Assembly (NCBI GenBank): GCA_022561095.1
Contig: JADFRV010000003.1
Location: 1 to 35,924 of the forward strand
Source of the DNA: Chloroflexota bacterium
GTDB lineage: Bacteria; Chloroflexota; Dehalococcoidia; SM23-28-2; RBG-16-64-32
Length of the DNA stretch: 35,924 bases
Direction of reading: 5' to 3'
Each line of letters starts with the position of its first letter. Position 1 is the first letter of the stretch. Of this stretch, positions 12,553 to 14,557 are shown in pieces. The position numbers were made by a program, and so were the translations under genes. The notes below the pieces were generated by a model. That model was not told the DNA's origin. It worked only from the letters and a program-made list of their open reading frames with translations, and made no database searches.

Positions 12553-12714
12553 CTATTTAGCCTGAGGGGCGAGTTTGTGCAACATTTCTGTCACGCCAAC
12601 GCTCAGGCCTGCCTCCGTCGCGATCTCCTCAATAGTAGCGCCGTGGACACCGTTACGCACGATCATCCTCATCGCCGCGCCCAAAACAGCCTCCGTTCGG
12701 GCATCGATATGCAC
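12553..12714 (-). CDS. TetR-type helix-turn-helix mini-ORF (53 aa), truncated TetR or HTH-only regulator
   Basis: GTG start with AAGGGAAGG 6 nt upstream; (M)[52 protein letters not shown] matches a TetR N-terminal HTH and stops where YHHF would follow. Not in the ORF track. Confidence 0.6.
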
Positions 12715-12780: not shown

Positions 12781-12840
12781 ACCATCTGCTTTCTGTGCAC
12801 GGCGTTAGTCCATGAGTCGTGCATGTTTCAGCCGGTGCGG
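12781..12840 (+). repeat. 60-bp direct repeat, copy 1
   Basis: accatctgctttctgtgcacggcgttagtccatgagtcgtgcatgtttcagccggtgcgg; 59/60 identical to 13572-13631. Confidence 0.97.
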
Positions 12841-12945
12841 GCCTACCTTCTTCGGAGTCACTCAACCGAACGCTCGCTTTGGTGCGCTCTCGTTAATCAA
12901 GATCTTCCTTACAGCCTTAGCTCCTAATTGCAATCTATCAACCCA

Positions 12946-13395
12946 TTAATTGACCGACAAGGCATCGGGAGCCAAGTCAGTCTGAATGATAATAAACTCA
13001 TGGGCCTTCCCACCTCTGTTACTCACGTCGAATGTGATAGAGCCTGCCGTTACGGAGGCGCTATCTGCATTGACGAACCACTCTCCCAGTTCCACATTCA
13101 CGGTCGCACCCTGGGAGTCGGCCTCGTCGATGACCTCGAAGGCTGTATACATTCCATTCTTGTAATGGCCCCTGAGGTTGCAGAAGAGTACGTACTTGCC
13201 GGGCGCGAGATCAAACATGCCGCTAGCCGACTTGCCAGGTCCCAACTTGCTCTCCCCGATGCTGCCGTTGACCATTCCAGCTTGCGACTCGTCCACCTGG
13301 CCCCACCCGCAGGCCGCTAGTACCAAAGTCAGGGCCACGACCATCCCCAACAGCATCGTGATGGTGCCAACCGCCCGTCGGTGTCCGCTCGTCAC
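12946..13395 (-). CDS. Lipoprotein cupredoxin with circularly permuted domain order
   Basis: Lipobox LVLAAC; Cu-site motif FCNLRGHYKNGM precedes the motif VTAGSITFDVSNRGGKAHEFIIIQTDLAPDAL that is normally N-terminal. GTG start at 13395 has AAGGGAGG upstream; an alternative ATG is at 13491. Confidence 0.85.
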   Translation of the reverse strand: MTSGHRRAVGTITMLLGMVVALTLVLAACGWGQVDESQAGMVNGSIGESKLGPGKSASGMFDLAPGKYVLFCNLRGHYKNGMYTAFEVIDEADSQGATVNVELGEWFVNADSASVTAGSITFDVSNRGGKAHEFIIIQTDLAPDALSVN

Positions 13396-13571
13396 GACAT
13401 TGGCCTCCCTTGTATGTTGGCCAGTTTTGCCCGTGTCGCCAAGAACCAACGTTGGTTTCTTCTCTTGCGTGCTCTCTCTTACGCTGTTCATGTTGTCCTC
13501 TCTCACCGGAATACAGGTATCGCCTGTTCGGTCATACTCGCCCGGCGGCCTTCTCCCCAGGAGAATTCCTA

Positions 13572-13631
13572 ACCATCTGCTTTCTGTGCACGGCGTTAGT
13601 CCACGAGTCGTGCATGTTTCAGCCGGTGCGG
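13572..13631 (+). repeat. 60-bp direct repeat, copy 2
   Basis: accatctgctttctgtgcacggcgttagtccacgagtcgtgcatgtttcagccggtgcgg; overlaps the 3' end of the LuxR-type gene. Confidence 0.97.
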
Positions 13632-14557
13632 CGGCGGCTGCCAATAGGAGTTGGAACGTACGCTGAGGCGGTGTCACCGGGCTGGACGAAACCAATCTCA
13701 TAGGCGAACGACGCAGCCTGAGTACGGTCTCGAAGATCAAGCTTGGAGAGGACGCGCTTTACGTGGGTCTTGACCGTGCCCTCGCTGATAACGAACGCCT
13801 CCGCGATCTCGGCGTTGGAGTGTCCTCGGGCGATAAGCCCGAGGACCTCCTTTTCTCTGCGTGTCAGGGCATCGAGGCCTGTGAGCCCCTCGGCGGGCGC
13901 CGCCTGTGACTCCTCTATGGGAGCCCTAGAACCTCCCTCCGGACCGCCCGGGGTAGGCTCGATCTCGGGGGGCACCGTTGGGATATTCTTGGCCCGAGTT
14001 CCGAGCATCAGCCTTGCCCATGACGCGTGAACAGCCGAAGCTATGTTGACGAGATGTACAGTGGCCAGGAACATGAGCAGACCCAATGGAACTAGCACGA
14101 GACCTTCTAGGACAGTGTCGACCTGGGGGCCATTCGCCCCGAAGTGCTGGTGAGGGCCGGAAAGCGCGATCACCGCCGGTGCGCTGATGAAGACGCCCGT
14201 GATGACGCTCGCCACAATGAGGCCAACGAACGCGGCGATGCCAATGGGGAACTGCGCGAAAAGGTAGACTATGCCGGTCCACGTAGTGGGGTCGATGAGG
14301 CGCATCCATACTTGGGACCGAGCGGATTGTCCGGCTTCAATTGCGGTCGGCGGACGTCGAAGCTCGATCTGAGCCACCTTTCGAACGACCCAGGCCTCGG
14401 CGTCGCCAGCCCAACGGGATAGAAATAGGGTCGCGATCAGCAACACCGGACCAACGATGGTCCAGATCATGGCCCCGCCGACCGCCAGCGCGACGACAAG
14501 GCCGACAAAGTAGGCAATTCCCAGAGGGAACATTGCCAGTAGGTGGAGCGCTCGCAA
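13619..14557 (-). CDS. Membrane-embedded sensor-domain protein with C-terminal LuxR-type HTH
   Basis: Repeated FPLGIAYFVGLVVALAVGGAM / FPIGIAAFVGLIVASVITGVF TM segments, then LDALTRREKEVLGLIARGHSNAEIAEAFVISEGTVKTHVKRVLSKLDLRDRTQAASFAYE. The frame stays open upstream to about 14644. Confidence 0.9.
   Translation of the reverse strand: MRALHLLAMFPLGIAYFVGLVVALAVGGAMIWTIVGPVLLIATLFLSRWAGDAEAWVVRKVAQIELRRPPTAIEAGQSARSQVWMRLIDPTTWTGIVYLFAQFPIGIAAFVGLIVASVITGVFISAPAVIALSGPHQHFGANGPQVDTVLEGLVLVPLGLLMFLATVHLVNIASAVHASWARLMLGTRAKNIPTVPPEIEPTPGGPEGGSRAPIEESQAAPAEGLTGLDALTRREKEVLGLIARGHSNAEIAEAFVISEGTVKTHVKRVLSKLDLRDRTQAASFAYEIGFVQPGDTASAYVPTPIGSRRRTG

Follow-up and report, generated by a model that had tools for sequence, protein, structure and literature searches.

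A putative natural circular permutant of a type 1 copper lipoprotein in a Chloroflexota genome

The window analysed here, a stretch of 35,924 nucleotides from a Chloroflexota bacterium, carries on its minus strand an open reading frame (ORF) of 149 codons plus stop, which starts with GTG at 13395 and ends with a stop codon at 12946-12948. Its translation agreed with the ORF, coordinates, lipobox and sequence quoted in the preliminary description of this DNA. The encoded protein (P0001) begins with a lipoprotein signal ending in LVLAAC and continues with GWGQ, the half that normally comes second in a cupredoxin domain (C-half), the linker DEADSQGAT and the half that normally comes first (N-half). 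Codon usage was coding-like in this frame in both halves, at a strength comparable to that of the neighbouring luxR gene. A promoter-like site for the gene was looked for and none was seen. The features of the locus are collected in Table 1.

Table 1. Features at the locus of the cupredoxin gene, with positions in the window and residues of P0001
Feature	Position	Strand	Remarks
tetR-type gene, remnant	12553..12714	-	53 residues
60-bp direct repeat R1, tetR side	12781..12840	.	98% identical to R2; single copy in G001 and G002
731-bp insertion	12841..13571	.	empty site in sister species G002:C5 and G001:C73
Putative permuted cupredoxin lipoprotein gene	12946..13395	-	GTG start, TAA stop; from translation; Shine-Dalgarno-like GGGAGG upstream
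N-half (normally first), VNVELGEW...KAHEFIIIQTDLAPDALSVN	12949..13101	-	N-half HMM E=9e-25; Cupredoxin_1 positions 17-63
Ligand His133 (mature H104)	13000..13002	-	aligns with invariant His of A2
Linker DEADSQGAT, native C-terminus to native N-terminus	13102..13128	-	within length range of inter-domain linkers of tandem relatives
C-half (normally second), VDESQ...CNLRGHYKNGMYTAFEVI	13129..13296	-	C-half HMM E=3e-22; SoxE positions 90-137
Axial ligand Met83 (mature M54)	13150..13152	-	aligns with near-invariant Met of A2
Ligand His78 (mature H49)	13165..13167	-	aligns with invariant His of A2
Ligand Cys73 (mature C44)	13180..13182	-	aligns with invariant Cys of A2
Lipobox Cys, predicted lipidation site	13309..13311	-	LVLAAC motif
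Signal peptide, hydrophobic core TITMLLGMVVALTLVLAA	13312..13395	-	charged n-region, hydrophobic core, LAAC lipobox
60-bp direct repeat R2, luxR side	13572..13631	.	includes luxR stop codon
luxR-type gene	13619..14557	-

The gene sits inside a 731-bp insertion with a 60-bp flanking duplication, a feature that was absent from the preliminary description. The two copies of the repeat were identical at 59 of 60 positions and thus one base apart. The corresponding locus of two congeneric species (G002:C5 and G001:C73) has a single copy of the repeat immediately after the luxR-type gene, with the tetR-ABC genes next, and both flanks of the insertion were syntenic with these sister species at ~90-94% identity. 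Since the repeat is single and the site empty in the sisters, either the gene came by insertion or the others lost it. A DNA source of the 731 bp was sought in the rest of the host genome and in 14 other close genomes, with no match, and the insertion contained no other evident gene and no recombinase. The repeat, which carries a small hairpin, was rejected as a dispersed element, since only two copies exist genome-wide; 60 bp is long for a transposon target duplication. The tetR-type remnant encodes a helix-turn-helix (HTH) and then jumps to the C-terminal end. The gene is intact in G001, and G002 and the window carry different internal deletions, which suggests a spot prone to rearrangement. 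On the other side, the product of the luxR neighbour combines a LuxR-type HTH with a Pfam Sensor domain (PF13796) at its N-terminus.

It had been claimed that the two halves of the protein are reversed, and this was borne out by comparison with a paralogue in the host genome (G000:C48), which has the normal order of N-half then C-half: residues 33-89 and 93-148 of P0001 matched it in the opposite order. The same reversal was observed against ~30 relatives. In Pfam, residues 42-88 corresponded to positions 90-137 of the 149 positions of SoxE, and residues 94-139 to positions 17-63 of the 104 of Cupredoxin_1. The E-values of the two half profiles (3e-22 for the C-half, 9e-25 for the N-half) indicate that the reversed match is not due to chance. 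The first His ligand, which precedes the Cys in the canonical strand order, follows it in P0001, and no full-length match to sulfocyanin (SoxE, PF06525 / TIGR03094) was obtained: PF06525 scored 27.4 bits (cut-off, 21) over the partial stretch given above only, and TIGR03094 reached 21.8 versus a cut-off of 168.4. Flanking halves hidden by a frameshift, which the preliminary description had named as a finding that would speak against its reading, were searched for in all minus-strand frames: no N-half lay upstream of the gene and no significant C-half downstream. A suggestive in-phase resemblance (W-VD--Q-G) 3' of the stop codon was considered as a C2 remnant but rejected for want of proof (HMM E 0.43, shuffle p ~0.11).

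The domain itself appeared to be complete. As previously noted, each of the four ligands (His, Cys, His, Met) occurs once, as C73, H78 and M83 in a C-x4-H-x4-M motif and as H133, which corresponds to the ligand set of type 1 copper sites. Completeness was assessed by rotating the sequence to the normal order and aligning it with 41 canonical domains (alignment A2). The rotated sequence aligned end to end. At 23 positions, conservation within the family is 85% or higher, and the sequence retained 23 of these 23, ligands included, compared with 19 to 23 in the canonical members themselves. The break falls in one loop, as had been proposed, with the end at ...DALSVN and the start at (C)GWGQVDES... 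leaving practically no gap or overlap. The uncut equivalent of this loop is seen in the relative L014 (...DELSVTGGKVDEE...), where SVTGGKVDE resembles the rejoined ends. A complete domain with exchanged N- and C-parts and with new termini in one loop corresponds to what is called a circular permutant. The short tether was considered as an objection to function and dismissed, since the tethers of canonical lipoproteins measure ~1-44 residues.

The mature chain was modelled with AlphaFold2 from an input alignment that combined C1-N2 stretches of tandem proteins with rows for single half-domains, and these half-domain rows aided the prediction. The predicted fold, which had been suggested as a check, was confident (mean pLDDT of 94.1 and pTM of 0.87, versus 96.0 and 0.88 for the canonical paralogue). 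The strand series of the permuted and canonical models were rotations of each other, and the permuted chain is predicted to form the two-sheet cupredoxin beta-sandwich, the same fold as in its unpermuted relative. When 350,542 PDB chains were searched with Foldseek, only chains A and B of 5syd matched the permuted model at a probability of 1.00 (E 0.013, TM ~0.49), the other listed matches being at or below 0.35. The canonical model gave 348 matches at E<=0.001, with auracyanins and azurins on top. This difference in the best matches of the two models is a clear sign of a permuted cupredoxin topology.

The 5syd entry is cpAz, an engineered circularly permutated azurin. Like the permuted protein, it has a cupredoxin fold in which the native termini are connected and the chain begins and ends within the domain. 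However, cpAz was made in the laboratory from Pseudomonas aeruginosa azurin, whereas the permuted protein is natural, is predicted to be lipidated and shares only ~20% identity with cpAz. The auracyanin/sulfocyanin-like lipoproteins of Chloroflexota (6kol, 1qhq, 2aan and the paralogue G000:C48) have superfamily and ligand set in common with the permuted protein but run from N-half to C-half; G000:C48 is a lipoprotein too and is ~50% identical to it in each half. Tandem cupredoxins of two or three domains, which we observed in Chloroflexota and Ilumatobacteraceae (L102-L106, L111, L112, L114), contain the same C1-linker-N2 stretch. In contrast to the permuted protein, they retain N1 and the last C-half and consist of complete domains only. 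In L102 and L103 (Candidatus Aquidulcis and uncultured Chloroflexi), the triple-domain gene lies beside a COX2-like ORF on the opposite strand, in which a further half or whole cupredoxin domain of this family is present. Outside the cupredoxins, natural circular permutants are known among exported bacterial proteins, for example in the metal-related imelysin-like proteins of Bacteroidales; these are all-helical and occur in several species (PMC3143127), whereas the permuted cupredoxin has a different fold and was found in one genome.

The distribution of the reversed order was surveyed with separate N-half and C-half profiles made from 36 canonical relatives, with which every related ORF fetched was typed. 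The 104 distinct ORFs comprised 78 NC, 18 NCNC, 3 NCNCNC, 2 CNC, 2 N and 1 CN types. Canonical or complete tandem orders thus accounted for 99 of them, and the sole C-N ORF was the permuted gene. Both lone-N ORFs were located at contig edges, and in the two C-N-C ORFs the first N-half was probably too diverged to score. We ran 1668 genome scans on ~950 distinct genomes, mostly of one class and phylum, and searched further contigs, viral contigs and plasmids. No second permutant was found in these ~950 genomes, and none among viral contigs, viral structures and plasmids. C-N junctions were detectable in these scans, since the junctions of tandem proteins were reported. Junction-spanning matches in G136, G173, G342, G080, G443, G620 and others were traced to tandem domains or to alignments of signal peptides. 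A low correlation between the affinities of the two halves (rho of 0.04 versus a canonical median of 0.36) was set aside as evidence, since it is biased downwards when, as here, relatives are selected because they resemble one or the other half of P0001. In the literature, we found no report of a natural circularly permuted cupredoxin or blue copper protein in the open text of PubMed Central, and this absence is weak evidence since subscription papers are mostly outside that text. As far as we found, azurin was permuted earlier in the laboratory and a natural case is apparently unreported.

We consider it probable, though by no means assured, that the product of the gene is a type 1 (blue) copper lipoprotein with a natural circular permutation, which derives from a tandem ancestor and is likely a membrane-tethered electron carrier. 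The permutation, already proposed in the preliminary description, is the best reading and is supported by the half order unique against the 99 ORFs, the full set of conserved positions, the predicted fold (pLDDT 94) and 5syd as the only convincing structural match. In our estimate, it is an even bet that this is a functional protein and the first example of a type 1 copper protein permuted circularly by nature. The strands of the first half would fold back into their usual places in the cupredoxin sandwich, and the predicted fold and the alignment suggest that His, Cys, His and Met come together around a single copper. In this arrangement, the protein would be lipid-anchored through the loop that connects the halves of a canonical domain, and the nine-residue linker would join the native termini. 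Its most likely role would be that of a carrier of electrons like the auracyanins and sulfocyanins, with a type 1 copper site and a tether to the membrane.

Regarding the origin, the ancestor may have been a tandem two-domain cupredoxin, whose first half-domain was lost with fusion of the signal peptide to C1 and whose last half-domain was lost through a stop after N2. Such trimming of a tandem ancestor at both ends had been suggested, and it was backed in part: the phylum has intact proteins of the NCNC and NCNCNC types, and their linkers match in length, with -5 to 19 residues between the profile ends of a C-half and the next N-half in the tandem relatives and 2 in the permuted protein, but no intermediate was found. 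No tandem protein was seen in the taxonomic order to which the host belongs. Since a search of the insert in its minus-strand frames gave no significant N1 or C2 remains, the tandem route is deduced indirectly, and we regard this origin as plausible.

The main rival to a functional permutant is a recent, non-functional relic, namely a C1-N2 fragment of a foreign tandem gene that landed in frame behind a signal peptide at a hot spot of rearrangement. We regard it as rather unlikely, although it draws on several observations: the insertion is missing from both sister species that keep the locus, its GC content is below that of the neighbourhood, the adjoining tetR is a deletion remnant and no orthologue of the permuted gene was found in the ~950 genomes. 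Moreover, the 60-bp repeats are only one base apart, which leaves little time for decay, so that an intact sequence tells little about function. A loss of function would also be tolerated, since the host has other cupredoxins (11 Cupredoxin_1 matches). However, the gene begins and ends within one and the same loop, so that exactly one domain is kept, which by our estimate would occur by chance in ~6% of cases (random ends, period of ~110 residues). Retention of all 23 conserved positions, together with a lipoprotein signal, a Shine-Dalgarno-like site and coding-like codon usage, likewise argues against a relic.

A functional protein could also be a domain-swapped dimer or oligomer, in which the two halves of each sandwich, C-half and N-half, come from different chains. 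Short linkers between halves can permit chain swapping, and the linker here has nine residues, but the monomer was predicted confidently (pTM 0.87) and, among known structures, it most resembles a chain of permuted azurin; we therefore hold swapping to be improbable. Even less credit is due to an assembly artefact that misjoined half-domains of different genes or strains. The host assembly, the only genome with the permuted gene, is indeed a metagenome-type draft of 267 contigs (87% complete, 5.7% contamination), and the 60-bp repeat has the size of a k-mer. However, neither half has a DNA source in this genome or in the 14 other close genomes, both flanks are syntenic with the sister species, a continuous frame crosses both junctions, and the two copies of the repeat differ by one base.

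Cupredoxins are textbook electron carriers, and to our knowledge engineering has been the only approach to the role of chain connectivity at their constrained copper site. A natural permutant that retains all ligands would provide a ready-made test of connectivity at the copper site and an example of how circular permutation arises in a family rich in tandem duplicates. If our reading is true, a topological change of the kind engineered in cpAz has also been made by nature, which in addition moved the membrane tether to another of the domain's loops, and the protein would offer a system for testing how anchoring through a different loop alters electron transfer.
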